In this document: positions 6,901-24,022 of the stretch, in pieces
Position numbering within the stretch: the stretch's first letter is position 1
Layout: the number at the start of each line of letters is the position of its first letter
Assembly: GCA_026702755.1 (NCBI GenBank)
Contig: JAPPBX010000005.1
Coordinates: 1 to 38,616, forward strand
DNA: 38,616 nt
Source of the DNA: Candidatus Poribacteria bacterium
GTDB lineage: Bacteria > Poribacteria > WGA-4E > WGA-3G
Direction of reading: 5' to 3'
Translations under genes and position numbers: made by a program
Notes under the pieces: generated by a model
What the model was told of the DNA's origin: nothing
The model's database searches: none
What the model saw: the letters and a program-made list of their open reading frames with translations, nothing else

Positions 6901-9900
6901 GTGGAAATGATGAAGCGATCAGATGAGAGTGATCATTGGATTGTGGAGGAAGTGTCGGGAATCGGAGTTCCCTCCTACAAAAGTAACCATTGGGTTGTGG
7001 AGGAAGTGTCGGGAATCGGAGTTCCCTCCTACAAAGGTAAATGTTTTTACACTGCTTGGGTTGCGTGTGCTTTATTGTTGCTTGTCCACCTTGTGATTAT
7101 AGGGTGTGGACCGTTGACGAACGATCAGCAATCTAATCTTCCGTTCGAGGATTCCGGTGCAGATTCACGCCCCGAAAAAGTATGGCCCGTGGAACGGACG
7201 CTCGTCAGCAACGAGGTTAACTGTATTGCTGCCGGTCCAGACAATGTATGGATTGCGACAGCGCGTGGGGTTTCACGCTGGGACCGTCAACAGGATAAGT
7301 GGCACCACTATACGATGGAAGATGGGCTGGCGAACGATATGGTGAATGCCGTTGCGGTCGATGGGCAATGGGTCTGGTTCGCTACAGATGAAGGTGTGAG
7401 TCGCTACGATATGCAAACGGGCACTTTCGCGACCTTCCGAACTATTGATGGTTTAGCGAGCGACGAAGTCTCCTCTATTGCGATAGATGGAAATTACGTC
7501 TGGTTTGGAACATCCGATGGGTTAAACCGTTATGACAAAACGATTGATAGTTGGGCTGTCCGGACCCGAAAAGATGGCTTGGTCAGCAAAGTAATTACAA
7601 CAATAGCCGTCGAACCGGAGTACGTCTGGGTTGGCACCGATAGGGAGATAAACCCGGATCCGCATGGATGGGATGAGGATCCAAGGTTCAGCAGAGGTGG
7701 GGTGAGCCGCTACCATCGAGATACCGATTCTTGGAATAACTATACGAAATCGGACGGTTTGATAGACAGCGAAATCGCCACGATTGCAGTGGACGACGAC
7801 AGTGTTTGGTTTGGCACGCAAGAAGAAGGTGTCAGTCAGTACAATACGGTTGATCAGACATTCATCAAAACCTATACGAAAACCGATCTGCTGAAAAGCA
7901 ATATGATCACTTCTATTCGGTCAGACGGTTTCCAAGTCTGGTTTGGGACTGCTAATGCGGGTGTACATCGGTTCATCAAACCCGTCAATACATGGGTACA
8001 TTACACCAAAGTAGATGGGTTGTCGAGCAATCATGTGAGTTGGATTGCTATACAAGGTAATGATGTTTGGTTCGCGAGTAAAGAGGATGGTGTAAGTCGC
8101 TTCGATAAAGTGAGCGGTGAATGGACAATTTACAAGCAGGCTGATTTTCTTGCCGACAATGATGTTCGTGCCATAGCACGTGGGGCGGATGGGAACCTCT
8201 GGATGGCGACAGTCGCCGGGGTTTCGGTTTACGCTCCTCAAACGCGCAGTTGGGAAATCATCTCTAAAGAAGATGGACTGCCGACTCCGTATACCACGTC
8301 AATACTTATTAGCCATCAGCAGTCAGCAGTCAGCAGTCAGCAAGAGGACTCTCGTGGCAGTGATAACAAAAGCAATATCCATAACAAACCTACTGATAGC
8401 GGACAGCCGACAGCCGACAGCCATTCCCGCGTCTGGATTGGGACTGATCGAGGGCTTGGGACGCGGATGTATGTGGGCGATGAATGGACGTTCCATACGC
8501 CGCGGAATAGTGGTCAGTCATCAGTTATCAGTCATCAGTTAAAAGATGGTGCTGTTGGATCAGATACTCCTTTAACTGAAAACCAAAAACTGACAACCGA
8601 AAACTATAAAAGTGAAGCTTTTGTAACAGCACTTGATACCGATGCGACACAGCCCAACGGTATTGTCTGGCTCGGGACCAGTTCGGGACCCGCCATGTAT
8701 AATCCAATATCTCAAAAGTGGATGCAGCTTGCCATAGCGGACGCGCCCGAAAATCCGATTATACTTTCTGTGCTTGTTAGTAATGATAATGTTTGGTTTG
8801 GTGGGGCTGAGGGTGTTTGGCGATATTCGATAGTCAATAAGCAGATGCAACGTGCTGCCGATGGACTTTCCAATCCGTATGTTAATGTCCTGTTGTCCAC
8901 AGGTGAAAAAGGAAAAGAAGAGACGCTTTGGGCGGGAACCCGCCAGGGGCTTGCAAAATATGACAGCACTCGACAGCGTTGGGTCCCGCTGTCCTTTAAT
9001 GACCAATTGCCGTCCCCCAATGTCACCGCGCTCGCTTTTCAAGATGGCATTCTTTGGATCGGCACACCACAGGGGCTGGGAAGCTACGCGGTTGCTTCCA
9101 ATTCTTGGAATTCGCTCTCAAATGTGCCGTATAACGTTCGCGACATTCTGTGTGAAGCAGATAATACCCTTTGGCTGGCAACGGACACCGGTCTTATTGA
9201 ATATGGCACGCAGGATGGAAGAGAGGTACTTCATCAATCCCGTCCGGTGCGAGAGCCGTTCCTTGAAACCAAAGTCTCACACATCCAATTTGATGGCGAT
9301 TACATTTGGTTCACTAACTGGAGGTCTTCGCCGAACGGTAGTATTGCGCGGTTTCATCGTCCAACGGCAACGTGGCGGCGTTTCACACGCTTAGATATTT
9401 TACAGTCCACTCAAAAAAGATCCATGACCTTTATCCGTTGGACTTATGTAGATACTGATGCCGTTTGGTTCACCACGGATTACGGTGTTCTCCGTTACGA
9501 TAAAATGGCGGATACGTGGCAGCATTTTACGACGGAAGATGGACTCTCTACAGACGATGTGAATAGAATTGATGTAAGTGAACTGAGCGTCTGGGTCATT
9601 CCAATGATAGGTTTAGAATTAAACCATTATAGTAAAGCGACTGGAACGTGGAAAGTGGTTGAGGAAGAAGATAACCGCGAGGTTGAGCGTGTAAAGGCAC
9701 TTGGGGTTGACGGACCGGAGGTCTGGTTTTCATCTGGTCGTGGACTCACTCGCTACAATGAAATCACCGGTGAATGGAAAGATTTCGGACCAAGGGATGG
9801 TCTGGCGGGTAGAGGCGGGGAATGGATTACTGTAGATGACGATTTCATCTGGGTCGCGCGTTCGGAATGGGACAGGGGCAGCAACCGTCCCTTGTCACGA

Positions 9901-11349
9901 TACGATAAGAAGACAAAAAAATGGACGACGTTTTCAACGAATGATGTACTTGCTGCGAATACCATTAGACGCATTATCTCAACAGAGAACGATGTCTGGA
10001 TACTCTACAGACCTTGGGAGGATGTAGGTGTTACTCGATACGACAAGCGGAACAAGGAGTGGACGACAATCAGATCGGGACGCGGAACGCTCGAACTGGC
10101 AGTCGATGATGACTATCTGTGGTTAGCTGCACCCAACGATGGGCTTCGACGATTTCATTTTGCCTCTGGTACGTGGGCAAGGTTTAGAGATATCAAAGGG
10201 TTGCTCCATAATCATGTCGGCGAGTATGGGCTTGCAGTCGATGAGGACTATGTATGGGTGGGAACCTTGCGCGGGCTTTCCCGTTATGACAAGCGGAAGG
10301 AATCTTGGACCCCTTTGACGGCACTACCTACCCTTGTTGGACGCACCATTCGGACAGTAGATACGGATGAACGTTTCGTCTGGATCGGTTCCGATGAGGG
10401 TATGTCACGCTATGACAAGGTGTTAGGGACTTGGAAGAATTATCAGCAGGAGGGTGGCCACGAACACATAGAAACCCACGGCGGTCATTGGGACCGACAT
10501 GGGCGGAAAAAGAGAGACTGTCTCTCCGATAACGTTGTGAGTTCTATTGTAACGGATGAACAATACGTCTGGGTCGGGACACGCGACGGTGCGAATCGCT
10601 TTGATAAGATAGCTCTGGAGTGGGACCAGTACAAAACTCACCACGGGTTGCCCGCCAATAATGTGACTTCTGTCAGCAGCGACGGCGATAGTATTTGGGT
10701 TGGGACTAATTCCGGGATTGGGAAGTATCCCCGCACAGCGGATGACCTCAACGCCTGGGTTACCTACACATCAGGGACTGAGATTCAGCCTTCCGCTGTG
10801 TCTAAAGAGTTCGCAGAATCATTGGTTACCGATCAAATTTGGTGCATCACGGCGAGCAAGAAACACGTCTGGGTTGGGACCCGCCGAGGTGTAAGCAAAT
10901 ACGACATCAGTAGAGACATCTGGAAGACAATCACAGTGAAAGATGGGCTTGCGAGTGATGAAATCAGTTGTATCGCTATTGATGGTGACAATGTCTGGTT
11001 TGGCAGTGATCTCGGTGTGACGCTCTATAATGAAAAGACAGAAGTTTGGGCCGCCTATACAACAGAGGATGGACTCGCCAGCAACAAGGTTACCACCATC
11101 GGTGTTGATGGGACAGAGGTCTGGATCGGCACTTACAATGCCGGAGTCAGTCGGTTTGATCAGTTGACAAATACCTGGACCACTTACACCCGAGAGGACG
11201 GTTTAGCGCATAACGGTATCCTTTCCATGGCTATAGGGGACACTTACGTTTGGTTGGGTACATATCGTGGATTGAGTCGTTTCGATAAACGGACAGGAAC
11301 TTGGACAACCTTCACAGAGTCTTACGGACCAGAGGATATTTTGAGATAG
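6901..11349 (+). CDS. Giant multi-blade beta-propeller lipoprotein (Reg_prop type)
   Basis: This 1482-residue protein is made almost wholly of repeats of the form vWfGT..GvsrYD....W..yt..DGL.sn.v..ia.dg, the 'two-component regulator propeller' repeat. I count about 29 vW-x-x-x motifs, enough for about four seven-bladed propellers. No histidine kinase, GGDEF or response-regulator domain follows. A hydrophobic stretch at about 52-68 ends in a lipobox-like VIIGC with C69, suggesting a lipid-anchored surface or periplasmic protein. The first 45 residues contain a 54-nt tandem duplication (6934-7041), giving an abnormally long n-region. AGGGGAG (6891-6897) precedes GTG 6901 by 3 nt and ATG 6907 by 9 nt, so 6907 may be the real start. 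Two repeat-derived inserts interrupt blades at about residues 470-508 and 538-570. A ligand-binding or adhesion role is inference. Confidence 0.8.
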   Translation: MEMMKRSDESDHWIVEEVSGIGVPSYKSNHWVVEEVSGIGVPSYKGKCFYTAWVACALLLLVHLVIIGCGPLTNDQQSNLPFEDSGADSRPEKVWPVERTLVSNEVNCIAAGPDNVWIATARGVSRWDRQQDKWHHYTMEDGLANDMVNAVAVDGQWVWFATDEGVSRYDMQTGTFATFRTIDGLASDEVSSIAIDGNYVWFGTSDGLNRYDKTIDSWAVRTRKDGLVSKVITTIAVEPEYVWVGTDREINPDPHGWDEDPRFSRGGVSRYHRDTDSWNNYTKSDGLIDSEIATIAVDDDSVWFGTQEEGVSQYNTVDQTFIKTYTKTDLLKSNMITSIRSDGFQVWFGTANAGVHRFIKPVNTWVHYTKVDGLSSNHVSWIAIQGNDVWFASKEDGVSRFDKVSGEWTIYKQADFLADNDVRAIARGADGNLWMATVAGVSVYAPQTRSWEIISKEDGLPTPYTTSILISHQQSAVSSQQEDSRGSDNKSNIHNKPTDSGQPTADSHSRVWIGTDRGLGTRMYVGDEWTFHTPRNSGQSSVISHQLKDGAVGSDTPLTENQKLTTENYKSEAFVTALDTDATQPNGIVWLGTSSGPAMYNPISQKWMQLAIADAPENPIILSVLVSNDNVWFGGAEGVWRYSIVNKQMQRAADGLSNPYVNVLLSTGEKGKEETLWAGTRQGLAKYDSTRQRWVPLSFNDQLPSPNVTALAFQDGILWIGTPQGLGSYAVASNSWNSLSNVPYNVRDILCEADNTLWLATDTGLIEYGTQDGREVLHQSRPVREPFLETKVSHIQFDGDYIWFTNWRSSPNGSIARFHRPTATWRRFTRLDILQSTQKRSMTFIRWTYVDTDAVWFTTDYGVLRYDKMADTWQHFTTEDGLSTDDVNRIDVSELSVWVIPMIGLELNHYSKATGTWKVVEEEDNREVERVKALGVDGPEVWFSSGRGLTRYNEITGEWKDFGPRDGLAGRGGEWITVDDDFIWVARSEWDRGSNRPLSRYDKKTKKWTTFSTNDVLAANTIRRIISTENDVWILYRPWEDVGVTRYDKRNKEWTTIRSGRGTLELAVDDDYLWLAAPNDGLRRFHFASGTWARFRDIKGLLHNHVGEYGLAVDEDYVWVGTLRGLSRYDKRKESWTPLTALPTLVGRTIRTVDTDERFVWIGSDEGMSRYDKVLGTWKNYQQEGGHEHIETHGGHWDRHGRKKRDCLSDNVVSSIVTDEQYVWVGTRDGANRFDKIALEWDQYKTHHGLPANNVTSVSSDGDSIWVGTNSGIGKYPRTADDLNAWVTYTSGTEIQPSAVSKEFAESLVTDQIWCITASKKHVWVGTRRGVSKYDISRDIWKTITVKDGLASDEISCIAIDGDNVWFGSDLGVTLYNEKTEVWAAYTTEDGLASNKVTTIGVDGTEVWIGTYNAGVSRFDQLTNTWTTYTREDGLAHNGILSMAIGDTYVWLGTYRGLSRFDKRTGTWTTFTESYGPEDILR
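6934..7041 (+). repeat. 54-nt tandem direct duplication inside the propeller gene 5' end
   Basis: Units 6934-6987 and 6988-7041 are nearly identical and encode two copies of an 18-residue block with HWxVEEVSGIGVPSYK. Each unit contains a palindromic core GGGAATCGGAGTTCCC plus flanking GGAGG and CCTCC, like a small palindromic repeat. The period is a multiple of three, so the frame is kept. Confidence 0.8.
8308..8425 (+). repeat. CAGTCAGC-type low-complexity repeat inserted in the propeller gene
   Basis: Starts with iterated CAGTCAGCAGTCAG units and ends with iterated GACAGCCGACAGCC. It is translated in frame as a Ser/Gln/Asn-rich linker (ISHQQSAVSSQQ to PTADSHSR) between a DGL turn and the next VWIGT strand, so it looks inserted in a blade loop. 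Confidence 0.7.
8511..8610 (+). repeat. Second CAGTCATCAG-type repeat inserted in the propeller gene
   Basis: Begins GGTCAGTCATCAGTTATCAG and ends with ACTGACAACCGAAAACT. It contains an 8-bp inverted repeat CAGTTAAA (8536-8543) and TTTAACTG (8571-8578). It is read in frame as a polar linker of about 33 residues. Confidence 0.65.
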
Positions 11350-11440: not shown

Positions 11441-13393
11441 ATGAATATAAAAATAGGTGTCCGAAAGTGCCTGATCCCATGTTTTTTCCTCTTGCTGTTA
11501 AACTACTCTCTGGTGTTCTATGCTGAGGCGGAGGATGCGTACAGTCTATTCGGTAAATTGTTCCTATCCGGACGCGTCGAATACGATTTCACAAATAGAC
11601 GAAACTTCCTCGCGGATACAGAGGAAGAACGAGTTAGACAAGACCGTTTTGATTTTGATCGCCTTTTTCGGCGCGGCTTTCATAGCGTCATGGTGATTGA
11701 GGAAACCGCGGGTAGGGTCAAGAATATCCTGAGTCTCGGTGAAGTGCCAACGACCTTCACAAAGTTCACTTTCGATCAGATCGACCTAAGTGGAGTCCGC
11801 TGGGAGGTTCGCTCTGATCGCACCGACTGGACAATCTTGATGGTTCCTGGATTGCTCAATCGACTGAATGGGCAAGAAGGACAAACGGAAGGGTCCGGGA
11901 TCGGCTTGCGCGAGGTCACAAAGTTCGGCAGGTCGCAGTTAGGGCTTTCTTGGTACTACCGTAAGGTACCCGTATGGGCAGTGGATTTGGAAACCAATTT
12001 CACAAACTACGGTATAAAAGCCGAGGTGGCTGTCACGCCGAAAAGCGCGCTGCAAAAGAACTTGGGTTCGCGTTTCGATGCGACGACAACAGTTTTCAAA
12101 GCCTTCCAAACTGTTGGTGATACAATTTTTCAGGCGGAAGCGTATCGCGTCGGTCCCAGATTCGATGCCTCCCGTTCGGTTGGTGATAACGATGACCAGG
12201 ACCGCTACTCCGATAACACACCCCCTGATCCTCCCTCTCTAATTATTCCCGGTGACCTTGACAAAAATAACAACGGTGTCTTTGATTACGAAGATGATAT
12301 TCTGCTTTTTGATGTCGATGAGGATTTCCTTGACGAAAGCGATCAGAACAACAACGGCATTCGTGATGAAGAGGAAAATGATAAGGATCCTAACTACGAG
12401 TTCGATGTCGGACTTCAAGGTGTTCGGCTTTTCATGAACCGTAAGATAAGTCAACAGGCGAGTGTGGTTGACTTAGACCTTGGGTTCCAGATTGAAGAAA
12501 ATATCAGACTCAGGAATACACCGTCCTCAACGAAAGCGTTTGCCAATCTGATTTATCGGAAGGAACTCGCGCGGGCTTCTTCACTCATTTTTGAGAACGA
12601 ACTGAAACTGGTAAAAGACCGGATTCCTGACGAAACGTGGTATTTTGCGGGATTCTTAAGCGGAACGGAAGAACGGCTCTACCGGTCACAGCCGGAGGTC
12701 CGAAAAATGGAGAGAGACGGGGGTGTGGAATTCTTCGGTATTGATGGCGGCACCGAAGTCGAAAAACGACGCAAGGATCCACTGCTGATGCAGAACGACC
12801 TGATTAACACTGCCAAAATCACGTATGAATACTTGGGGATTGACCGGATGATTACCACGGCTCGCGCTAAAATTCAATACGACTATGATTTTGAAAAGGA
12901 CAATCAGCATTACGAGGTCGGCATTTTCAAAACTCTCTACCGGATGCGTCCTACCAAATCCCTTGAGATCAGTCCAATGTTCAAGTCCACCATCCGTAAC
13001 GGCTTTCGGATGGCAGAGGACCGACTTGAATACCTTTCCTTAAGCGGAGAAGTCGACGGTAGGGAAGCCTTTCGCCGACTCCGATTACGGGAAATTGAAC
13101 GGACAAATGTCCGGGATATGGCTTCAGCACTTATCCTTAAGGTCGTGTATCAGTTTACGAAGACGATCAAACTTACCGGTGGTGGGCAAATTCTGTTGTT
13201 CAATGATATGCGTGATAATGATAACGACTTTGTCCGTCAAGCACTGTTAGCCGAGATGGAAAAAAGTTTTGTCGCTTACGAGAAGCGGATGTTTCTGCAT
13301 ATCGGCGCACGCTACATAGATCAACGCGCAATTGGGGATGTTAATGATCAGAATTACATGGAAATTTTTGTGCGAGTTTTTGGGAGATTCTGA
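11441..13393 (+). CDS. Probable outer-membrane beta-barrel protein with calcium-binding-type loops
   Basis: The 650-residue protein has an N-terminal signal region (about 1-30, with LIPCFFLLLLNYSLVFYAEAEDA). Alternating strands then repeat patterns such as YEYLGIDRMITTARAKIQYDYDFE and VGIFKTLYRMRPTKSLEISPMFKSTIRNGF, and the protein ends in a terminal aromatic, VRVFGRF-stop. A C-terminal Phe and amphipathic strands are usual for outer-membrane barrels. Residues 272-315 form an acidic insert with DLDKNNNGVFDYEDD and ESDQNNNGIRDEEEND, resembling EF-hand or thrombospondin-3 calcium loops. I do not recognise a named family. It starts 91 nt after the propeller lipoprotein, so the two may work together at the cell surface. 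Confidence 0.6.
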   Translation: MNIKIGVRKCLIPCFFLLLLNYSLVFYAEAEDAYSLFGKLFLSGRVEYDFTNRRNFLADTEEERVRQDRFDFDRLFRRGFHSVMVIEETAGRVKNILSLGEVPTTFTKFTFDQIDLSGVRWEVRSDRTDWTILMVPGLLNRLNGQEGQTEGSGIGLREVTKFGRSQLGLSWYYRKVPVWAVDLETNFTNYGIKAEVAVTPKSALQKNLGSRFDATTTVFKAFQTVGDTIFQAEAYRVGPRFDASRSVGDNDDQDRYSDNTPPDPPSLIIPGDLDKNNNGVFDYEDDILLFDVDEDFLDESDQNNNGIRDEEENDKDPNYEFDVGLQGVRLFMNRKISQQASVVDLDLGFQIEENIRLRNTPSSTKAFANLIYRKELARASSLIFENELKLVKDRIPDETWYFAGFLSGTEERLYRSQPEVRKMERDGGVEFFGIDGGTEVEKRRKDPLLMQNDLINTAKITYEYLGIDRMITTARAKIQYDYDFEKDNQHYEVGIFKTLYRMRPTKSLEISPMFKSTIRNGFRMAEDRLEYLSLSGEVDGREAFRRLRLREIERTNVRDMASALILKVVYQFTKTIKLTGGGQILLFNDMRDNDNDFVRQALLAEMEKSFVAYEKRMFLHIGARYIDQRAIGDVNDQNYMEIFVRVFGRF

Positions 13394-13470: not shown

Positions 13471-13499
13471 TTGACAAATATATCTATAGGGTGTATAAT
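13471..13499 (+). promoter_or_regulatory. Perfect-consensus sigma70 promoter for blaI-M56
   Basis: TTGACA (13471-13476), exactly 17 nt, TATAAT (13494-13499). Both hexamers match consensus fully, so this should be strong unless repressed. Confidence 0.85.
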
Positions 13500-13528
13500 A
13501 CTATTACTACGTATTTATTTTTAGTATT
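13497..13528. promoter_or_regulatory. Candidate BlaI-type operator dyad
   Basis: Inverted repeat AATACTA (13497-13503) and TAGTATT (13522-13528) overlapping the -10 box and the start of transcription. BlaI/MecI dimers bind TACT/AGTA-type dyads at their own promoters, so autorepression here is likely by analogy. Confidence 0.45.
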
Positions 13529-13610
13529 TACTGATCGTAATTTGTAAAGTGAGCGTCAACATTTTGGCTCATAGGTCAGATTCACCTTTAACTATATAAG
13601 GACCAATCAG

Positions 13611-13997
13611 ATGAAAACCAAGAGATTACACCCATTAGAACTTGAAGTGATGAAAGTGGTATGGAAATTGACGCGTGCTACGGTCAACGATGTTCTCGAT
13701 AACATTAACCGCAAGCTCGCCTATACCACTGTCGCCACGACTATGAAAAGTCTGGAAAAGAAGGGTTTTTTGTCGCATCAAGTTGACGGTAGGACGTTCG
13801 TTTACCAGCCTTTGGTCAAAGAGACAGAGATTACGCATACGATGCTCAGCGATTTGTTGGAGCGTCTTTTTGACAACTCAGCTGAGAAGTTGGTGAACAC
13901 ACTCCTCGAGGTGCGACAAACCAGCGTAGATGAACACAACCGTTTACAAGCGTTGATTAACAACTATCAACCTGAAGGAGAAAAAACCGATGAGTAA
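13611..13997 (+). CDS. BlaI/MecI/CopY-family transcriptional repressor
   Basis: This 128-residue protein matches the Penicillinase_R winged-helix family in length and motifs: LHPLELEVMKVVWKLTRATVNDVLDNINRKLAYTTVATTMKSLEKKGFLSHQVDGRTFVYQPLV. The TTVATTMKSLEKKG segment is the recognition helix region. Family members dimerise through the C-terminal helices and are inactivated when a partner M56 protease (BlaR1/MecR1) is triggered. The partner gene starts 8 nt before this stop, so the pair is translationally coupled. AAGGA-like sequence lies upstream of the ATG (ATAAGGACCAATCAG). The preceding consensus promoter and dyad suggest autorepression. Nothing points to beta-lactam resistance, as no beta-lactamase or penicillin-binding gene is present. 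Confidence 0.9.
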   Translation: MKTKRLHPLELEVMKVVWKLTRATVNDVLDNINRKLAYTTVATTMKSLEKKGFLSHQVDGRTFVYQPLVKETEITHTMLSDLLERLFDNSAEKLVNTLLEVRQTSVDEHNRLQALINNYQPEGEKTDE

Positions 13998-16980
13998 GCA
14001 AATCCTCCTTTCTCTGCTCAACTGCTCATGGCAGTGGATGCTTCTGAGCGGTTTGATATGGTTTGCAACAAACTCTGTATTTCGCAAAAGCCGCCGTTCC
14101 AACCCCACTGTCCATCTGCTCTGGCTGTTGTCTTTACTCAGTTTACCGCTCCTGTTCGGCTTGAATCAGTTTGTGCCAGCGCTCTCCATCGGCAGCACGG
14201 TACCAGAATTAGCGCAGGCGAAGCCAATAGACGTATCCGGTTTAACTCCGCTGACTACGGATTTACCAGAAATTTCGTCCACTAAAAGCGATACACAATC
14301 CAAAAACCAACTGCTTGCTGGAAGTAAGTTCTTCTTGAATTGGGCAAAGATGGATCTTCTATTGTGCGTCTGGGCAATCGGTGCAGTCGCTATGTTAGTC
14401 CGTTTCATCTTTGGCTTGTACCGAATCTATCAACTCCGACGCAATGCTGTGGCGGCTGATGATTCATATCAGGCAATCTGCCGACGATTGGCGCGACAAT
14501 TGGATATAAATCGTCCGGTTACTATATGCTTCTCGGATCGGGTATCATCACCGATTTCATTTGGTTGGTTATCACCCCACATTCTGATTCCACGAGAACT
14601 GAATTTGGAGCAGTTTGAGTTGGTAGCCGCCCACGAATTAGCCCACGTACAACGACACGATTGGTTGACAAATCTCTTTTCGCACGTGGTGGGCGTTATC
14701 TTTTTCTTCCATCCGATTTACCATTTCCTTAACCGCGAACTCGTCCGCGTGCGGGAACGCATCTGTGACGATTGGGTCATCCGCCTGACAGGTGCCAGAA
14801 AAAACTACGCACAGTGTCTATTGGATATGGTTCGTCACGAAGACCGAGTTGTTCCACTTGCGTTATCACTCAATCAACCATCGCAATTGGAATCTCGTAT
14901 TGATTCCATTTTGAAAAGCAATCGACGGTTAGACGTGCAATTGAAGCCGCGCTTGCAGTTAATGGTAGCGACTTTACTCCTAACCTGTCTCCCTCTATTG
15001 GCAATGGCACAGTTGGTGCCGCTGAAAACTTTCCAAGTCTCACTCTTCGCTCAGACACCTCAGAAAGCAGAAAAAGGGGTGGATAAAACTGAGAAAAAAC
15101 TGGGGATGGAGAAAGCGAAGGTTGGAAAGATGGACGGGAAACAGTACAAAGATAAATCACGCATCAAAGTGAAAGATCCAGGACTGTTTAAGCCGTCTGA
15201 AGAAAACAAGATATTTTCTGGACCGCAACCTGGGGAAAAACTTCCGGCATTGATGGTGAGCGGCATTGACGGCGAACTTGAGGATCAAACGTATGATATC
15301 ACCGCTGAGACGGATGGAAAACCATTTGTATTGTTCTTGCAAGATACCAATGGCGTTGGCGTAAAAGGGCTTGTTAACGTGTTTGACTTGCTTCTTCAAA
15401 TTGATGCTTTCCAAAAAAGGCATAGCAAGGCAACGGGTGGCGAAAGGTCTAATCAAGGGCTCCAGATAGGTGTCGTGTTCCTTGCAGATAATCTTGATAC
15501 TCTACCTGAATGGGCGCGTGATATGTTAAGAAAAGAGGTTCCAAATGAGGTATTAACAGGATTATCTCCCGATGGACGTGAAGGACCAGGGAGTTATGGA
15601 CTTAATCGCAATGTTGGACAGACCGTTCTTATTGCTAAAGATGGGAAAGTCCTGCACAATTTTGCTTTCACACAACCGATGCTCTATCCCGATCCGCATT
15701 TCCTCGGTGCCATAGCACAAGCAATTGAAGTAGAACCCGCTACACTGGAGAAGTGGCTGAATGAAGAGGGAGAATGGTTAACCGGCGATGAAAATACAAA
15801 TCTAACGTCCGCAACAGTAGAGAAATGGTTGAACGAAGAAAAGGCTGCGGAAAGTGAGCAGATGCAGCGCGACAGAAGGAAAATGGAACCAGAAGGTGCT
15901 CGCAATAGTGAACAAGATCCCTCTCTCGAAGAACTCGTCAAGCCGTTCGACAAAGATGGCGATGGCAAATTGAATCGAGAAGAAGGCATGGCAATGCGTC
16001 GCACCTTAGTAAATCGGGAATCTCAAAACCGATACCGCAGCGAGAACGTTGAAGTGAAAAATCCTGCTGAGTTCAAAAAGGTGCAGGGTGCACCACTCTT
16101 CTCTGGTCCACAAACCGGTGAAAAACTTCCACCTCTGAAGGCTAAGGGCATCAACGGTAAAACTAAAGGCAAAACGTATGATGCTATCGCCAAGGCAGAC
16201 GGACAACTCCTCGTTCTCTTCCTACAAGATGAAAGCGGTCTCGGTTTACGAGGGTTGCTTGGCATTTCTCGTTTACTCGCTCAAATTGCCGAGAAGTCTG
16301 AACAGGCAATGCATATAAATGCTGTGTTTTTAGGGGACACACCGGATACCGTGGAGAATCAAGCCAGTAAGTTAGTCCCACATATTCCGGGCGGTGTCTT
16401 ACTTAGTATTTCCCAAGACGGTCGTGAGGGTCCAGGCAGCTACGGACTCAATCGCAGTGTCGCGCAGACGATTATCATCGCCAAAGATGGCAAAGTGCTA
16501 CACAACTTTGCTTTCACACAACCTATGCTCCGTCCAGACCCATACGTTCTTGGGGCTGTCGGAGAAGCAATCGGCATAAAACCTGCAACGCTGGAAAAGT
16601 GGTTGAACGAAAAAGGCCTTGTGATCAAAATTAATAATCCTACCGCCAGCGATAAAATGGGTAAAATGCTCTTAAACGGAGCCGTTGTGCAGTTTGACGA
16701 AATGGATTCTCTCCTCCACAGCTTGCCTGAAGAACAAAAATCTATGCTCACTATCCAACCTGGGCGAGATGTACCTCATCAACAGATCGTCAAAGTAATG
16801 GATATAGCAAAAGAGGCAGGTATTGATCAAATTGAATTCGCAACTGATTTACCTGAAGGTGAGCGGATGCAGCGTGCTTTTGTCGGACAGCTTCGAGAGA
16901 TGGTCGAAAAGGGCGAAATCACTGGCGAAGAAGCCCGCGAACTATACGAGAAAGCATTTCCTCGTCGTAAAGAAGATTAA
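13990..16980 (+). CDS. BlaR1-like M56 metallopeptidase fused to thioredoxin-like, EF-hand and ExbD-like domains
   Basis: A membrane protease of 996 residues, likely the sensor partner of the BlaI-type repressor. Residues 1-340 are the M56 domain with several membrane helices and the zinc motif HELAH (H215, E216, H219), followed by an LTGARKNYAQCLLDMV region. A further helix lies at about 319-340. The extracytoplasmic part is new to me: two homologous thioredoxin-fold-like modules at about 405-600 and 700-877. Each begins SGPQxGEKLP, contains GREGPGSYGLNR and AKDGKVLHNFAFTQPM, and has no cysteine. Between them is an EF-hand loop DKDGDGKLNREE (654-665). The last part (about 878-955, QFDEMDSLLHSLPEEQ then LTIQPGRDVPHQQIVKVMDIAKEAGI) resembles the periplasmic domain of ExbD/TolR. 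No penicillin-binding sensor domain is present. Start overlaps blaI by 8 nt. Confidence 0.8.
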   Translation: MSKQILLSLLNCSWQWMLLSGLIWFATNSVFRKSRRSNPTVHLLWLLSLLSLPLLFGLNQFVPALSIGSTVPELAQAKPIDVSGLTPLTTDLPEISSTKSDTQSKNQLLAGSKFFLNWAKMDLLLCVWAIGAVAMLVRFIFGLYRIYQLRRNAVAADDSYQAICRRLARQLDINRPVTICFSDRVSSPISFGWLSPHILIPRELNLEQFELVAAHELAHVQRHDWLTNLFSHVVGVIFFFHPIYHFLNRELVRVRERICDDWVIRLTGARKNYAQCLLDMVRHEDRVVPLALSLNQPSQLESRIDSILKSNRRLDVQLKPRLQLMVATLLLTCLPLLAMAQLVPLKTFQVSLFAQTPQKAEKGVDKTEKKLGMEKAKVGKMDGKQYKDKSRIKVKDPGLFKPSEENKIFSGPQPGEKLPALMVSGIDGELEDQTYDITAETDGKPFVLFLQDTNGVGVKGLVNVFDLLLQIDAFQKRHSKATGGERSNQGLQIGVVFLADNLDTLPEWARDMLRKEVPNEVLTGLSPDGREGPGSYGLNRNVGQTVLIAKDGKVLHNFAFTQPMLYPDPHFLGAIAQAIEVEPATLEKWLNEEGEWLTGDENTNLTSATVEKWLNEEKAAESEQMQRDRRKMEPEGARNSEQDPSLEELVKPFDKDGDGKLNREEGMAMRRTLVNRESQNRYRSENVEVKNPAEFKKVQGAPLFSGPQTGEKLPPLKAKGINGKTKGKTYDAIAKADGQLLVLFLQDESGLGLRGLLGISRLLAQIAEKSEQAMHINAVFLGDTPDTVENQASKLVPHIPGGVLLSISQDGREGPGSYGLNRSVAQTIIIAKDGKVLHNFAFTQPMLRPDPYVLGAVGEAIGIKPATLEKWLNEKGLVIKINNPTASDKMGKMLLNGAVVQFDEMDSLLHSLPEEQKSMLTIQPGRDVPHQQIVKVMDIAKEAGIDQIEFATDLPEGERMQRAFVGQLREMVEKGEITGEEARELYEKAFPRRKED

Positions 16981-17063: not shown

Positions 17064-18425
17064 ATGAACGTAGTAAAACGATGTGATGGCATGAATCGCC
17101 GTGATTTTCTGCGCGTCGGTGGATTGGCGGCACTCGGATTAGGGTTAGGTGATTTTTTCCACCTCCAACGCGCCTTTGCCAGCAACAGTCCACTGACAGC
17201 AAAAGCGAAATCCTGTATCCTGATATGGCTTGATGGGGGTCCCAGCCATCTGGAGACCTTTGATCCGAAACCGGATGCCCCACAGGAGGTTCGCGGACCC
17301 CTGAGCACTATTGCTACGAATCTTACAGGCGTACGCCTCAGTGAATGTCTGGAACGGACTGCAGGCATTATGGATAAAATCGCCATTATTCGTTCTATGA
17401 CCTCGCCGCTTGGTGAACACAGTCTCGGCACCCAATACTTGATGACTGGATACAAACCTACACCTGCGTTGGAGTATCCGACCTTTGGTGCAACGGTCAC
17501 CTATATCAGATCTCAAAATAGTCAAAACACTTCAGGAGATGCACTCACCGCTTTACCGCCAAACATTGCAGTTCCGAATTTCACAGGTCAAGTGTCGGGA
17601 AACGGATACTTACCGAGTGCTACGCGCCCATTTTCTGTTGGCAGTGATCCGAAAAGACCTGACTTTAAAGTTCGCGACCTTGATTTCTATGAGGGGATTG
17701 ATTTGCAACGCGTTTCCCGGCGTAGGCAGTTCGTCAATGCGCTCAACGAATTCAGTCGTGCCAAAGACGCTGGCGCAACGACGGTATCGGACCCGGAGTT
17801 AGAACGTGCCTACAACCTGATAACATCACCCGAGGCCAAAGCAGCGTTCACGCTTTCTGAGGAGCCTCAAGACGTGCACCAGCGATATGGTCCCGGTGGT
17901 GTGAACGGAATCGGGCAGAGTTGTTTATTGGCACGGAGGTTGGTCGAACGCGGTGTTCCATTCGTAACTGTCAACCATACGGGTTGGGATACACATAACG
18001 ATATATTCCAGTTGAAAGAACGATATCCTACCGATCGGAATGCACATCTACCATCGCTTGATCGGGCATTGAGTGCGTTGATTCAGGACCTTACCGATCG
18101 TCGCATGTTGGATGAAACACTCGTAGTGGTTATGGGTGAGTTCGGACGCACACCGAGAATCAACTCACAAGGTGGACGGGATCACTGGCCCAACGTGTTC
18201 AGTGTGATGTTGGCTGGTGGCGGCGTGCAAGGCGGTCAAATCGTAGGCAGTAGCGATGCACTCGGCGAATTCCCAAAGGAACGTCCCGTGACACCATCGG
18301 ATCTGTCAGCCACAATCTATACACTGCTAGGTATTGACCCCAGTTTTGAGTTGCATACCAGTGACGGGCGACCTGTCCGCGTTGCTCCTGACGGTGCTAA
18401 TGTTGTTTCGGAATTAATCGCTTAA
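17064..18425 (+). CDS. Tat-exported DUF1501 protein
   Basis: DUF1501 proteins are secreted alkaline-phosphatase/sulfatase-fold proteins of unknown reaction, very common in Planctomycetes and relatives and usually encoded with DUF1549/DUF1553 cytochromes. This 453-residue copy has a twin-arginine signal (NRRDFLRVGGLAALGLGLG, R12-R13). It carries the family blocks ILIWLDGGPSHLETFDPKPD, MTSPLGEHSLGTQYLMTGY, VNHTGWDTHNDIFQLKERYP, VVVMGEFGRTPRINSQGGRDHWPNVFSVMLAGGGV and the closing TIYTLLGID. Length is normal. GAGGG lies 7 nt before the ATG at 17064; M10 at 17091, closer to the Tat motif, is an alternative. It sits 26 nt before the PQQ-propeller gene. Confidence 0.9.
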   Translation: MNVVKRCDGMNRRDFLRVGGLAALGLGLGDFFHLQRAFASNSPLTAKAKSCILIWLDGGPSHLETFDPKPDAPQEVRGPLSTIATNLTGVRLSECLERTAGIMDKIAIIRSMTSPLGEHSLGTQYLMTGYKPTPALEYPTFGATVTYIRSQNSQNTSGDALTALPPNIAVPNFTGQVSGNGYLPSATRPFSVGSDPKRPDFKVRDLDFYEGIDLQRVSRRRQFVNALNEFSRAKDAGATTVSDPELERAYNLITSPEAKAAFTLSEEPQDVHQRYGPGGVNGIGQSCLLARRLVERGVPFVTVNHTGWDTHNDIFQLKERYPTDRNAHLPSLDRALSALIQDLTDRRMLDETLVVVMGEFGRTPRINSQGGRDHWPNVFSVMLAGGGVQGGQIVGSSDALGEFPKERPVTPSDLSATIYTLLGIDPSFELHTSDGRPVRVAPDGANVVSELIA

Positions 18426-18451: not shown

Positions 18452-19789
18452 GTGAGAAAAATAATTTGCAGCTTATTAATCGGGATTGTTTTGGCTTGTA
18501 TGCTTTATGCACAAGATGGGACAAAAGAGGATTATTGGAATCAGTTCCGCGGTCCAAATGGAGACGGCAAGGCAATAGGTAGTGCCCTCCCTACCGAATT
18601 TAGTGAAACGAAAAACGTCCGTTGGAAAACACCCATTCACGATAAAGGGTATTCATCGCCTATTGTTTGGGGAAATCAGATTTGGGTGACAACTGCACGT
18701 GAAGATGGCAGAGAACTCTTTGCGATCTGTGTAGACTTAGAAAGCGGCGACATCTTACACGATATAAAAGTGTTTGATGTCGCGGAACCGCAACTCGAAC
18801 ACGGGGACCTCAACAGCCATGCTTCGCCGACCCCAATTGTAGAGGAAGGACGCATCTACGTTCATTACGGTACGTATGGCACCGCCTGTCTGGACACGAA
18901 AACTGGCGAGAAACTTTGGGAACGCCGAGACCTGAACTGTGATCATCGGGTGCGTCCCGCGTCTTCCCCGATTATTGATGAGGATACGCTATTTCTCACT
19001 TTCGATGGCGTTGATGTACAGTTTATTGCAGCACTCGACAAGAACACCGGCGACACTTTGTGGTTACAGCATCGAAAAGTTGACTCAAATTTTGAGGATG
19101 TCCTCAGAGCTAAGGGTGTTAAGGATATTGAAGAAACGAAAAAAGAAAAGCCAAACGATAACAGGAAATCTTATGCAACGCCAACGATTATCACATATCA
19201 AGGAAAGAAGCAGTTGGTGAGTCCGGCAGCGGAAGTCACAATTTCCTACGATCCTAAAACAGGCGATGAACTCTGGCGTGTTCGACATGAAGGATGGGGT
19301 TGGAACGTTGCGTGTAGACCTATTTTCGCACACAATCTTGTCTATTTTACAATTGGCGTGGAAAAATTGTTGCTGGCGGTTGATCCCTCTGGTGGGGGTG
19401 ATGTTACCGATACGCATGTCGTCTGGAGCAATCGCAAGGGTGCCCCTGAAATACCATCGCCGCTGATTGTAGACGATTTGGTGTTCATGGTTAACGAGGG
19501 TGGTGTCGTCTCTTGTGTAGAGGCAAAGAATGGAAATCTTGTATGGAAAGGTCGTGTCGGCGGAAATCACTGGGCATCCCCGTTATATGCAGGTGGCAAC
19601 ATCTTTTTTTTCAGTATGGAGGGGCGCGTATCGGTTATCTCTGCCGGACGAGCGTTCAAGTTACTCGCACGGAACGAGTTTGATAACGAATTTATTGCAT
19701 CTGGTGCCGTTGCTGGTAACGCGCTAATTCTGCGTTCGCTTACGCATCTCTATTGTATTGAAGAAACGGATCCAAATGAACGAAAATAA
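18452..19789 (+). CDS. Exported PQQ-type beta-propeller protein
   Basis: A 445-residue protein starting at GTG, with GAGGAA upstream and a signal peptide at 1-20 (ending MLYAQ-DG). The rest shows PQQ/BamB-type propeller repeats: VRWKTPIHDKGYSSPIVWGNQIWVTT, ASPTPIVEEGRIYVHYGTYGTACLDTKTGEKLWERRDL, ALDKNTGDTLWLQH, SYDPKTGDELWRVRHEGWGWNVACRPIF and CVEAKNGNLVWKGRVGGNHWASPLYAGGNIFFF. Such proteins may bind PQQ, but many bind none and act as scaffolds or sugar-dehydrogenase-like enzymes; the sequence does not decide. It lies between a DUF1501 gene and a DUF1549/DUF1553 gene, an association usual in this group of bacteria. Confidence 0.85.
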   Translation: MRKIICSLLIGIVLACMLYAQDGTKEDYWNQFRGPNGDGKAIGSALPTEFSETKNVRWKTPIHDKGYSSPIVWGNQIWVTTAREDGRELFAICVDLESGDILHDIKVFDVAEPQLEHGDLNSHASPTPIVEEGRIYVHYGTYGTACLDTKTGEKLWERRDLNCDHRVRPASSPIIDEDTLFLTFDGVDVQFIAALDKNTGDTLWLQHRKVDSNFEDVLRAKGVKDIEETKKEKPNDNRKSYATPTIITYQGKKQLVSPAAEVTISYDPKTGDELWRVRHEGWGWNVACRPIFAHNLVYFTIGVEKLLLAVDPSGGGDVTDTHVVWSNRKGAPEIPSPLIVDDLVFMVNEGGVVSCVEAKNGNLVWKGRVGGNHWASPLYAGGNIFFFSMEGRVSVISAGRAFKLLARNEFDNEFIASGAVAGNALILRSLTHLYCIEETDPNERK

Positions 19790-19815: not shown

Positions 19816-22044
19816 ATGAAAGCGATCCAATTCACTCTCATAACATTGATATTATCAGCCGTGCTTTTCTTGTACGGTCGCGTCCACCAGAATGTATCCT
19901 TTGCAAACAACGATCAGACTAATTTTGCTGCATCAAAATCATCTGACCGTGTTGACTTTGAAAACGATTTGATACCGATTTTTACCAAGTTTGGGTGTAA
20001 TGCGGGGGCATGTCATGGCGCAGCTGCTGGTCGGGGTGAATTCAATTTGTCGCTCTTCGGTGGTAATCCACAAGCGGATTATAAAGCGATTGTCCGTCAA
20101 CTCGCTGGCAGACGTATCAATCTGATGCGACCAGAAGAAAGCCTGATTATTCTAAAGCCGACAGCACAAACCAAACATGGCGGTGGGCAGGTTTTGGATG
20201 AAAATGGAGAAGGCGCGCGATTGCTCCACAACTGGATCCGGCAAGGCGCGACTTACGAAACGCTACGTCATTTGGAGCGTGTTGAAATATCCCCGCAAAA
20301 ACATGTCATCTCTAATCTTGAGAGTCCGGTTCAACTGCACGCAACTGCCCATTTTTCAGATAGGACAAGAGAAAACGTGACACGATGGACTGTCTTTACA
20401 CCAGAAGACACTTCAGCGATTGAAATTGACACAGCCACTGCCCTCGCCAAAGTTCGTCGTCGTGGTCGGCATATTATCCTTGCTCGTTATCTCACAGAGG
20501 TCGTCCCGATTGAATTCATCACCCCCTTGAACGAGGTTCCGATACAGAATGCCTATAAAAATAATCCAACGCACACGTCTCCAGAATCGGTGAATACGAG
20601 TATTGATGATGAAATCCTCAAGTTACTCTCAACGCTCCGATTGCCAGTGTCACCAACTGTTGATGATGCTACCTTCTTGCGTAGGGTAACACTTGACCTC
20701 ACCGGACACCTCCCTACACCAGAGATGGTAACCGCATTCCTTGGAGATTCCAATACAAATAAACGGGAAACGTTGGTGGATACATTGCTTGGGTCGGATG
20801 AATTTAACGAGTACTGGACATTGCAGTTGGCGAAGCTGCTACGGATTGGCGCACGAGAAAGAAACACAGAAGGCGCGTTTGTCTACCATCAATGGCTTTC
20901 CCAACAGGTTCGCGACGGTGTTGGATATAATCAAATAGCACGTTCAGTTATTTTAGCAACAGGCGATTCCCACGAGGTCGGTCCGGCAAATTTTTACCGC
21001 ACAGTAAATGGACCGCGAGAACAAGCCGAATTCATGAGTGAACTCTTCATGGGAGCTCGACTCCGATGCGCGAATTGCCATAATCACCCGCTCGACAAAT
21101 GGACACAAGACGATTACCACGGATTGGCGGCGATCTTTGCCAAAATAGAGAGCGATCAGATCGTTAAGGTAAAACCGTCGGGTGAGGTTATCCACCCAGC
21201 GACGCGGGAAAAAGCAGTGCCGCGGATTCCCGGCGATCGGTTTCTGTCTGCTGATGTTCCTGATGGGCGAGTCGAATTGGTGGATTGGCTAACGGGTCAG
21301 GACAACCCATACTTTGCCAAAGCGATTGTTAACAGATTGTGGAAGGCGATGATGGGACGCGGTTTAGTTGAACCCGTTGACGATTTCCGATCTACCAATC
21401 CAGCCACCCACCCTGAGTTGCTAACAGAACTCGCTGACGACTTCGTGGTGCACGGCTACGACTTACGATGGACACTCAGGCGTATTGCGCTCAGTGAGTC
21501 TTACGCGCGTAGTGCAGATACGCTGCCGCAAAACGCGACAGATGATCGTTTCTATTCCCACGCGCTGCAAAAGCCGCTTGAACCGGAGGTGTTGGCGGAT
21601 GCGATTTCAGATGTCCTCGGTATACCGGACACCTACGGCAATGAACCGGAAGGCACACGTGCTGTCTCTCTATTCAACCCAAACACCGAATCCGAGGCAC
21701 TTGATATCTTAGGACGATGTGGACGTGAGACCTCATGTGAGAGTGCTGCTGAAGTAACGGATGGACTTCAGCGTAAACTGCACTTGTTCAATGGTGATCT
21801 TCTCAATGCACGCATCGGGGTTCCCGGTAGCCGACTTGATAAACTGATGTCGGAAGAGAAATCACCGATGGAGATTCTCGACGAGTTCTACCTCGCCGCA
21901 CTGAGTCGGCATCTAACAGAGACCGAGCAACAGTTTTGGGAACAGCACATTGATGTCAATTCATCTGCCAACTCCCAACGCGCGATCCTTGAAGACATGG
22001 TGTGGAGTCTGCTAACCTGTAATGAGTTTGTGGCAAATCACTAA
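19816..22044 (+). CDS. DUF1549/DUF1553 cytochrome-c-like protein
   Basis: A 742-residue exported protein with signal/anchor at about 1-30. Near the N-terminus is a haem-type motif CNAGACH (C61, C66, H67) in the setting typical of PSCyt proteins, followed by PEESLIILKPT and a WIRQGATY end. A short beta domain (about 155-240) follows. Then DUF1549 (about 255-460) begins IDDEILKLLSTLRLPVSPTVDDATFLRRVTLDLTGHLPT and holds a second haem-type motif CANCH (C418-H422) in LRCANCHNHPLDKW. DUF1553 follows at about 485-735 (NPYFAKAIVNRLWKAMMGRGLVEPVDDFR). These proteins pair with DUF1501 proteins and are thought to be surface or periplasmic redox proteins, but their reaction is unknown. Normal length for the family. 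Confidence 0.9.
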   Translation: MKAIQFTLITLILSAVLFLYGRVHQNVSFANNDQTNFAASKSSDRVDFENDLIPIFTKFGCNAGACHGAAAGRGEFNLSLFGGNPQADYKAIVRQLAGRRINLMRPEESLIILKPTAQTKHGGGQVLDENGEGARLLHNWIRQGATYETLRHLERVEISPQKHVISNLESPVQLHATAHFSDRTRENVTRWTVFTPEDTSAIEIDTATALAKVRRRGRHIILARYLTEVVPIEFITPLNEVPIQNAYKNNPTHTSPESVNTSIDDEILKLLSTLRLPVSPTVDDATFLRRVTLDLTGHLPTPEMVTAFLGDSNTNKRETLVDTLLGSDEFNEYWTLQLAKLLRIGARERNTEGAFVYHQWLSQQVRDGVGYNQIARSVILATGDSHEVGPANFYRTVNGPREQAEFMSELFMGARLRCANCHNHPLDKWTQDDYHGLAAIFAKIESDQIVKVKPSGEVIHPATREKAVPRIPGDRFLSADVPDGRVELVDWLTGQDNPYFAKAIVNRLWKAMMGRGLVEPVDDFRSTNPATHPELLTELADDFVVHGYDLRWTLRRIALSESYARSADTLPQNATDDRFYSHALQKPLEPEVLADAISDVLGIPDTYGNEPEGTRAVSLFNPNTESEALDILGRCGRETSCESAAEVTDGLQRKLHLFNGDLLNARIGVPGSRLDKLMSEEKSPMEILDEFYLAALSRHLTETEQQFWEQHIDVNSSANSQRAILEDMVWSLLTCNEFVANH

Positions 22045-22084: not shown

Positions 22085-24022
22085 GTGCCAAACCTCTTTT
22101 TTGCAATTTTAGTTGCGTTCATCTGCGTAGTCTCTATTGCTCCGGCACAGGAAAAAACCATGCATAACCAAGATGCTGTCAAAGTAAACAGCAAGGCATT
22201 GATCGTGGACATAGTACGTGCTGCGGGTAGTCGTTCCGAGATCAATGTAAACCAGTTGTTGAATAACCAGAAAAGCCCTGAATCCGTTGGGGCAGATGAA
22301 GCGATTGAGAAATGGATTGACGAAAATGGGGAATCGATCATTGGTACTCGCGGCGGTCCCTTTACTCCTACTGATCAGTATGTGACCACCTATAAGAATA
22401 GCAAAATCTATGTTCATGTACTTTCGTGGGATGGAAAGAACAATATTACCCTTCCAGCTATCACTGATCGGGTGGTAAAGAACGCTTGGATTCTGGGAAA
22501 TCCCACGGTAGACGGCACTTCGTGGGGTATCGTGCGCCAGCATCCGTGGGGGCTTTTGATTGTAGTACCAGAGGCGTACCAAAATGGTGTTGATGACATC
22601 GTCGTTCTTGATATTGAAGGGGATCCCACTACACTTAAGAAGCCAAGATTGATTGAGGCAGATCCTTCGTCAGTTATCTATCTGTTTGGAGACAGTGCCG
22701 AAGTAGGTGGGGGTCTTGTGCACTTGCAGGCACAAGACTGGATTGAAGGTTGGAACGAGTCATCTGCTTCACTTTCATGGAAGGTGAAACTTCCTATATC
22801 TTCCGATTACAAACTCGCGATGACCTATACTGCTGATACACATGCGGTAGGTTCGGCATTTGAGATTGTTGCTGGACACAATAAAACCGTTGGAACAGTT
22901 CGCCAAACGACTGGATGGGCAGGAGATTCGCAGAATTTTGAGAGGATATCGCTTCCGGGAACATTGCGCCTCCCCGCAGGTGAAAGCATAATTATGCTGC
23001 GTCTCATTGGAGAGGCAAAGTCTAAAGATGGGGTGCGAGTCCATTCGCTTGAATTAATTTCGCCGCTCGCTGATAAAGCAAGGATTGCTTCAAACGAGAA
23101 AGCGCAGCAGATACGTACCAAAACGGACTGGTTCGTCGAAGCGAAGTACGGCGTGATGTTCCATTGGTCAACAACAACACAACCGTCGCGTGGTCCTCAA
23201 AAACCTTACGTGGAGGCGGTGAATGCTTTTGACCTTGATGCTTTTGTCGACATGGTGAGTGAAACTGGAGCGGGCTACGTCATTTTCACTGCTGTCCACG
23301 GAATTATGCATTTCCCTGCCCCCTTAAAATCGATCGAAGTGGTTATGCCGGGACGCACCTGCAAACGAGACCTAATTGGAGAAATGGCTGGTAAGCTGCA
23401 AGAATGTGGTATTGCCCTTATTCTTTATTTTCATCACGGCGTAGGAGATTTGGAGTGGGTGAAAGCCTCTGGATTTTTAAGTCCAGACAAGTCAAAATTT
23501 TTCAAAATTGAGCATGACATTCTTACCGAAATCGGCATGCGCTATGGTAAAAAGGTCGCAGGTTACTGGTTTGATGATCGGTATCCGCTTCAGCCGTTTG
23601 AAGAATTGTATGAGGCAACTAAAGTTGGCAATCCCGAACGCATCGTCGCTTGGAACAGTTGGATTCTCCCCAAGACGACTGAATTTCAAGAGTACTATGC
23701 TGGCGAGTTTGGCGGTGCGCTCGTGAATCCACCAGAAAATTTCTTTGCAGAGGGTAGCAGTGCGGGTGGTTTACAACCGCACGGCTTGATCTTTCTTGAC
23801 GACCCTTGGCAGCACGGATATCCAGATACCGATATCGCCCCACCCATATTTACCACTCAACAGATTATCAATTACGTGAAGGCGTGTATTGCTCAAAAAC
23901 TGGTGATTACGATGAATATGGGTATTACTCAGGATGGGAAGGTTTCGCCGACAACACTTGAACAGATGAAAGCCTTGCGAAAAACGATCCGAGAGGATTC
24001 AAATACATTGGGAGTTAACTGA
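22085..24022 (+). CDS. Secreted GH29 (alpha-L-fucosidase)-like protein with permuted domain order
   Basis: A 645-residue protein starting at GTG with a clear signal peptide (1-22, ending APAQ). Residues about 55-185 look like the C-terminal part of a GH29 fucosidase: IEKWIDENGESIIGTRGGPF (N81-F92), then KIYVHVLSWDG, a LPAITDRVVKNAWILG strand set and LLIVVPEAYQ. Residues about 195-330 form a carbohydrate-binding-like beta-sandwich. Only then comes the barrel (about 347-640): DWFVEAKYGVMFHW (from D348), GYVIFTAVHGIMHFP, and GYWFDD, where D497 would be the nucleophile by analogy. In ordinary GH29 proteins the catalytic barrel comes first. Fucosidase activity is a family-level guess. The stop shares one base with the next ATG (TGATG at 24020-24024). 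Confidence 0.7.
   Translation: MPNLFFAILVAFICVVSIAPAQEKTMHNQDAVKVNSKALIVDIVRAAGSRSEINVNQLLNNQKSPESVGADEAIEKWIDENGESIIGTRGGPFTPTDQYVTTYKNSKIYVHVLSWDGKNNITLPAITDRVVKNAWILGNPTVDGTSWGIVRQHPWGLLIVVPEAYQNGVDDIVVLDIEGDPTTLKKPRLIEADPSSVIYLFGDSAEVGGGLVHLQAQDWIEGWNESSASLSWKVKLPISSDYKLAMTYTADTHAVGSAFEIVAGHNKTVGTVRQTTGWAGDSQNFERISLPGTLRLPAGESIIMLRLIGEAKSKDGVRVHSLELISPLADKARIASNEKAQQIRTKTDWFVEAKYGVMFHWSTTTQPSRGPQKPYVEAVNAFDLDAFVDMVSETGAGYVIFTAVHGIMHFPAPLKSIEVVMPGRTCKRDLIGEMAGKLQECGIALILYFHHGVGDLEWVKASGFLSPDKSKFFKIEHDILTEIGMRYGKKVAGYWFDDRYPLQPFEELYEATKVGNPERIVAWNSWILPKTTEFQEYYAGEFGGALVNPPENFFAEGSSAGGLQPHGLIFLDDPWQHGYPDTDIAPPIFTTQQIINYVKACIAQKLVITMNMGITQDGKVSPTTLEQMKALRKTIREDSNTLGVN

Follow-up and report, generated by a model that had tools for sequence, protein, structure and literature searches.

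To our knowledge, receptors of the BlaR1 type are known almost exclusively as sensors of beta-lactams, with the copper-related PetP as an exception. BlaR1 carries an HEXXH/EXXXD signature and cuts its partner repressor BlaI directly (PMC9834060), and the PetR/PetP system of cyanobacteria is a BlaI/BlaR1-type pair that serves copper (PMC7896320). Here we describe a receptor gene of peptidase family M56 that overlaps a blaI-type gene within 38,616 nt of Candidatus Poribacteria DNA (assembly GCA_026702755.1, contig JAPPBX010000005.1, forward strand); this whole stretch is referred to below as the window. The Candidatus Poribacteria are sponge symbionts. We think it reasonably likely that the encoded protein is a BlaR1-like receptor for something other than beta-lactams, which de-represses its own envelope operon. 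A preliminary description had recognized an M56 sensor-protease followed by two cysteine-less thioredoxin-like modules, an EF-hand between them and an ExbD-like tail, and had noted that no regulator with this domain order was known to it. We found none in the openly accessible literature, which also yielded no paper that links M56 proteases to thioredoxin domains, treats BlaR1 in Poribacteria or deals with M56/BlaI in Planctomycetes.

An M56 protease encoded with a BlaI-type repressor

The receptor is encoded by a single intact open reading frame (13990-16980, + strand) of 996 amino acids, which was compared with its relatives in a set of 19 proteins that includes the window's own (521 to 1348 amino acids; one, L041, reaches an N gap). 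Residues 35-306 match the Pfam family Peptidase_M56 (PF05569; E 5.2e-35, 121.5 bits against a cut-off of 31). The receptor has both zinc motifs, HELAH (215-219) and E256xxxD260, and every relative with an M56 part keeps them unchanged. Hydrophobic stretches lie at residues 39-67, 118-147, 229-247 and 320-348. Sequence matches of the protease part in the PDB were to Staphylococcus aureus BlaR1 only, and the cryo-EM structures of BlaR1 were also the best match in a fold search with the full-length receptor model. The NCBIfam BlaR1 profile gave 80.9 bits against a cut-off of 400, its alignment being confined to residues 29-337, and no Pfam match to a penicillin-binding (class-D beta-lactamase-like, SXXK) sensor domain was found in the receptor. 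Judged by sequence, the receptor belongs to peptidase family M56 and stands outside the BlaR1 beta-lactam receptor family. Proteolysis appears to be retained wherever the M56 part is present, since the zinc residues are invariant and the ratio of nonsynonymous to synonymous substitution rates (dN/dS) of this part is 0.12-0.22.

An assembly join fusing several genes was ruled out as the origin of the architecture: the order or close variants of it recur in many independent Poribacteria assemblies, and relatives are found in about 25 Poribacteria genomes, 3 of them chromosome-scale.

The blaI gene lies directly upstream and overlaps the receptor gene by 8 bp, in support of the pairing that the preliminary description had proposed. 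Its product matches Penicillinase_R (E 3.1e-31, 108.5 bits against a cut-off of 22.6) and, in a phmmer search, the MecI structures (E 1e-11). The promoter of the pair agrees with the sigma-70 consensus at 12 of 12 positions, by far the best match in the region, and a 32-bp imperfect dyad overlaps the end of its -10 element and the likely transcription start. In an alignment of upstream DNA from the relatives, TTGACA-N17-TATAAT and the following ATACTATTACTACGTATTTANNNTTAGTATTTA are conserved, and the DNA before the promoter is not.

The distribution of the dyad follows that of the repressor. It is single-copy in the window's genome (allowing up to 3 mismatches) and occurs exactly once in 25 of the 58 genomes of the family, with 0 matches to a reversed control pattern. 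A blaI ortholog is present in 24 of the 25 dyad genomes (Fisher p about 5e-12, a value that overstates independence because the genomes are related); three genomes have BlaI without the dyad, and in two of them the contig ends there. Because one copy per genome tracks BlaI and the control yields nothing, we take the dyad as the putative BlaI operator. One genome with no detected blaI ortholog (G004) carries a close copy of the entire blaI promoter with its dyad at about L148 9801-9832 (G004:C90:42801-42832, minus strand), where it precedes a gene for an extracytoplasmic function (ECF) sigma factor (L148:9080-9712).

Thioredoxin folds without cysteines

The two modules of the ectodomain (residues 391-605 and 684-879) are homologous, with a mutual identity of about 55-60%. 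No Pfam or NCBIfam profile recognized them and sequence searches in the PDB gave nothing significant; only the comparison of folds produced matches. An AlphaFold2 model of the second module, built with 35 module sequences, reached a predicted local distance difference test (pLDDT) score of 89.7 and a predicted template modelling (pTM) score of 0.88. The top Foldseek matches of this model in the PDB were all thioredoxin-fold proteins (DsbE, ResA and peroxiredoxins; best E 1.9e-6), with target template modelling (TM) scores of 0.69-0.74 for DsbE/ResA. The modules are thus predicted to have the beta-alpha-beta topology of thioredoxin. Prediction was less successful for the whole receptor, for which the full-length AlphaFold2 model had a pLDDT of 60 and a pTM of 0.32.

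Beyond residue 345 the receptor has zero cysteines, which makes CxxC chemistry impossible in its ectodomain. The ectodomain is likewise cysteine-free in 16 of the 19 members, the other 3 having one cysteine each, and no CxxC was found in the modules of any relative. Despite their fold the modules are not thioredoxin-type oxidoreductases, and they would serve as binding folds without redox chemistry. The motif GREGPGSYGLNRNVAQT is almost invariant in them and likely marks a functional surface.

One could still derive the receptor from M56-TlpA fusions and see it as a thiol-redox sensor whose modules partner another redox protein, as the only further complete M56 protein encoded in this genome has a C-terminal AhpC/TSA domain with an intact WCGFC, its own BlaI adjoining and other thioredoxins nearby. 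The scarcity of cysteines largely refutes direct redox chemistry, however, and an hhalign comparison of the modules with the redox-active thioredoxin domains of the genome gave a probability of only 4.7% (E 0.009); a specific origin of the modules from those domains is therefore not supported, and we give the redox reading next to no weight. Searches for relatives of the modules in phages and plasmids found none.

An optional EF-hand loop

The linker between the modules contains the loop DKDGDGKLNREE, an exact fit to the canonical EF-hand pattern, although the loop stands alone, Pfam recognizes an EF-hand at residues 653-665 only below its cut-off (best 0.011), and the flanking helices are modelled at low confidence in the full-length prediction. 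The preliminary description had seen in this loop a possible calcium switch. Calcium bound to it would alter the distance between the thioredoxin modules and so trigger the protease, an idea to which the position of the loop, always before a thioredoxin module in the 9 of 19 members that have it, lends some appeal, as do the acidic repeats of the neighbouring protein OM650, which could bind calcium too. About half of the members nevertheless lack the loop, some having a coiled coil or a Lamin Tail Domain (LTD) instead, and in one (L047) it is degenerate. Calcium thus does not hold as the common core of the mechanism, and the switch seems to us very improbable. Calcium may tune some members, without being their shared signal. 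What stands of that earlier regulatory reading is its other half, since cleavage of BlaI is the likely logic of de-repression.

An ExbD-derived tail

Residues 873-953 match the ExbD family (PF02472; E 2.9e-7, 31 bits against a cut-off of 25.4). The match begins at profile position 51 and the segment directly abuts the second module (module C); the N-terminal membrane helix with the conserved Asp of ExbD/TolR is absent from the receptor tail. Profile searches with hidden Markov models bore out the M56 and ExbD assignments above their cut-offs, but not the EF-hand or the modules. The tail shares 56% identity with the stand-alone ExbD of its own genome (L092:3647-4099), which is encoded beside ExbB. 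A tree built from 82 columns groups all 15 tails in a single clade (support 97/99) adjoining the ExbD of Poribacteria. This pattern fits the view that the periplasmic domain of the resident ExbD was captured once, with few columns to resolve the deeper forks. The stand-alone ExbD gene is followed by two tandem, near-identical ExbD2-like genes (L092:4153-4575 and L092:4830-5186), of which the second seems truncated at its end.

The origin of the tail invites the suggestion that the receptor is linked to a Ton/Tol system, its ExbD-derived domain reading an outer-membrane system driven by ExbB-ExbD, with OM650 as the partner. OM650, encoded upstream of blaI, is related to a protein beside the ExbB-ExbD genes (32% identity over 133 amino acids, E 1e-15), and this neighbour relation holds family-wide. 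The tail, however, is optional (11 of the 19 members) and the least constrained part of the receptor (dN/dS 0.30-0.66), and OM650 is near-universal in the family and kept in genomes without the tail, without the receptor and even without BlaI. We consider this suggestion improbable. OM650 has acidic D-x-N-x-N-G loops and a C-terminal Phe, with no Pfam family match, and is also related to proteins of about 1100 amino acids elsewhere in the genomes of the family.

A mosaic ectodomain

Conservation among the 19 members is strong over the N-terminal 340 residues; the remainder is a mosaic. Thioredoxin modules number from 0 to 3 per protein and occur in 30 of the 83 genomes of the class; these effectively represent two genera of a single family, a third genus contributing fragments. 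An LTD lies in the middle of three proteins (L045, E 6e-15; L038 and L048, both below cut-off), in a further member (L049, E 9e-11) it takes the place of the thioredoxin modules, and some linkers appear by eye to be coiled coil. In genome G008 an M56 protease has a Toastrack (DUF4097) ectodomain (L150:4405-6474) with the same BlaI and dyad. The domain order noted in the window is not fixed among the relatives: the constant core consists of the protease, BlaI and the dyad, and the ectodomain is an interchangeable cassette. Genome G022 encodes a shortened receptor of 521 amino acids (L050:6224-7786), whose sole thioredoxin module looks decayed and which is possibly a decaying gene.

Loss of the protease and possible shedding of the ectodomain

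In the single-contig genome G005 the M56 part has been removed in frame, so that MTKQILLSLLNCS is joined to LKPRLRLIAVTLLL, and BlaI and the dyad have been kept. G065, G067, G071 and G076 encode the ectodomain as what looks like a secreted protein, which occupies the same position in the locus with no adjoining blaI. In genus g20, 3 of the 4 protease-less genomes have lost the dyad along with the blaI ortholog. G067 also has a receptor with BlaI, M56, a coiled coil and ExbD and no thioredoxin modules (L051, G067:C83), separate from its secreted module protein (L110, G067:C11), and fused and protease-less forms stand in tandem in G025. On a tree built from the neighbouring OM650, DUF1501 and DUF1549, at least 3 changes are needed to explain these losses. 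Excision of the M56 part has thus taken place on at least three occasions, and what remains is a secreted ectodomain that keeps its place in the conserved locus and evolves under purifying selection; the modules of the protease-less forms have a dN/dS of 0.09-0.23, similar to that of the fused ones. Beyond what the preliminary description had proposed, the ectodomain is interchangeable, has repeatedly been freed from the protease and is part of a conserved envelope locus.

The point at which the ectodomain leaves the membrane is conserved as well. Directly past the last membrane helix, all 19 relatives have (A/S)-x-A followed by Q, and the same (A/S)-x-A stretch forms the signal-peptide end of the protease-less proteins. 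The site is equivalent in place to that of S. aureus BlaR1, where signal peptidase cuts between Gly331 and Gln332 and releases the sensor (PMC9834060), and the ectodomain could be shed by signal peptidase in the same manner.

These observations bear on a further alternative, in which the ectodomain serves the DUF1501/DUF1549 envelope locus chiefly as a periplasmic protein with a structural or chaperone-like role, the M56 part is a mere anchor and signal peptide, and BlaI provides simple autoregulation without ligand sensing. The secreted versions, conserved in place and arisen several times, and the signal-peptidase-like site agree with it. Against it stand the invariance of the protease residues and the constraint on the M56 part in the members that have it, and the loss of blaI and the dyad in 3 of the 4 protease-less genomes of genus g20. 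We therefore regard the structural alternative as unlikely and prefer the reading of the receptor as a BlaR1-like regulator of its operon.

A conserved envelope locus

In the relatives the genes run in the order Reg_prop, OM650, blaI, receptor, DUF1501, DUF1549/1553 and WD40, in many cases with a PQQ propeller gene after DUF1501 and a fucosidase-like gene before WD40; Reg_prop-OM650 and DUF1501-DUF1549-WD40 hold their order with or without M56. The gap between receptor and DUF1501 is 83 bp in the window and at most 178 bp in 19 of 21 loci. As this gap is short and no obvious terminator stands out in it, DUF1501 is likely co-transcribed with the receptor.

Table 1. Features of the receptor locus, in window coordinates.
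Feature	Positions	Strand	Residues and basis
Reg_prop beta-propeller protein, conserved upstream neighbour	6901..11349	+	
OM650, putative outer-membrane protein, conserved upstream neighbour	11441..13393	+	
Sigma-70 promoter TTGACA-17-TATAAT of the blaI-M56 operon	13471..13499	+	12/12 consensus
Putative BlaI operator, imperfect dyad AATACTA-N18-TAGTATT	13498..13530	+	conservation
BlaI/MecI-type repressor, 128 aa	13611..13997	+	Penicillinase_R
M56 (BlaR1-type) membrane zinc protease part	13990..15009	+	residues 1-340; PF05569, BlaR1 cryo-EM structures, zinc motifs
Signal-peptidase-I-like A-M-A/Q after last membrane helix	15001..15012	+	residues 338-341; putative function
Cysteine-less thioredoxin-fold module A	15166..15789	+	residues 393-600; homology to module C
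EF-hand loop in linker	15949..15984	+	residues 654-665
Cysteine-less thioredoxin-fold module C	16039..16605	+	residues 684-872; AlphaFold2, Foldseek
ExbD/TolR-type periplasmic domain	16606..16848	+	residues 873-953; PF02472
Helical charged C-terminal end	16849..16977	+	residues 954-996; two helices in full-length model
DUF1501 protein, probably same transcript	17064..18425	+	PF07394 E 1e-104
PQQ/BamB-like beta-propeller, co-directional; conserved neighbour in most loci	18452..19789	+	
DUF1549/DUF1553 (PSCyt2/PSD1) protein, co-directional, conserved neighbour	19816..22044	+	
Alpha-L-fucosidase-like protein, variable neighbour	22085..24022	+	
WD40 protein, conserved neighbour	24022..25371	+	

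Proposed mechanism and significance

In the resting state, BlaI would sit on the dyad at the beginning of the blaI-M56 transcript and repress the whole co-directional unit, comprising blaI, the receptor, DUF1501, the PQQ propeller, DUF1549/1553, the fucosidase-like protein and WD40. The periplasmic ectodomain, with its binding thioredoxin folds and ExbD-derived domain, would contact an envelope partner, most probably something encoded by the same locus or else a polymer on which that locus acts. An altered contact could move the membrane helices and open the cytoplasmic zinc protease, which would then cut BlaI and allow the unit to be expressed. The ectodomain cassette would be exchangeable and could also work as a free periplasmic protein. 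Because it stays in the locus once the protease is gone, it is probably a functional component, too, of the envelope system that the receptor would monitor.

Several points weigh against this scheme. The host organism is uncultured. Contacts between the domains of the receptor cannot be read from a full-length model of such low pLDDT. Cutting of BlaI is not assured, since the scissile Asn-Phe of MecI aligns with Thr-Leu in the window's BlaI. Finally, no further dyad copies that would define a regulon were found at 3 mismatches in the window's genome, so that any output beyond the operon rests on the assumed co-transcription.

The protein may represent a new class of self-monitoring envelope receptor, in which a fixed BlaI-M56-operator unit is combined with an exchangeable cassette, part of which (ExbD) derives from the envelope machinery of the cell itself. 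Such a cassette would be at once the sensor and a working part of the complex under its control, could be shed by signal peptidase, and would become a plain secreted protein upon deletion of the protease. We offer this broader view tentatively and with considerable doubt. M56 signalling looks like a general chassis, as one fixed protease-repressor-operator unit drives diverse ectodomains within a single family. The natural protease-less versions split sensor from protease, and with them the question of how M56 receptors read their ectodomains becomes testable. The locus also offers a first regulatory handle on the widespread, uncharacterized DUF1501, DUF1549 and DUF1553 proteins.

Comparison with known systems

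The closest parallels are BlaR1/MecR1 with BlaI/MecI of S. aureus and Bacillus licheniformis, which share with the window's receptor an M56 gluzincin with HEXXH and EXXXD, a C-terminal ectodomain outside the membrane, a BlaI partner gene and a possible signal-peptidase site past the last helix. The window's receptor differs in having thioredoxin folds, an EF-hand and ExbD in place of the penicillin-binding sensor, with no beta-lactamase or penicillin-binding protein target nearby. PetR/PetP likewise couples a BlaI-type regulator to a BlaR1-type protease for a non-antibiotic signal, yet its signal and targets are different, and an ectodomain of the kind described here is unmentioned in PMC7896320.

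For the parts of the ectodomain, the comparison lies outside the receptors. The modules share the fold of TlpA/ResA and AhpC/TSA proteins but neither their CxxC nor any recognizable sequence similarity, and the tail shares the periplasmic domain of ExbD/TolR but lacks the membrane helix and is fused to a protease receptor. A second BlaI-M56 pair in the same genome, whose BlaI is encoded at L095:6286-6675, is flanked by two more thioredoxin-domain genes. Its M56-AhpC/TSA protein (G000:C122, L095:3920-6289) resembles the window's receptor in joining M56 to a thioredoxin-fold ectodomain beside a blaI gene, whereas it has a single redox-type domain with WCGFC and a TPR region, lies in another locus, and has a protease that is about 26% identical.

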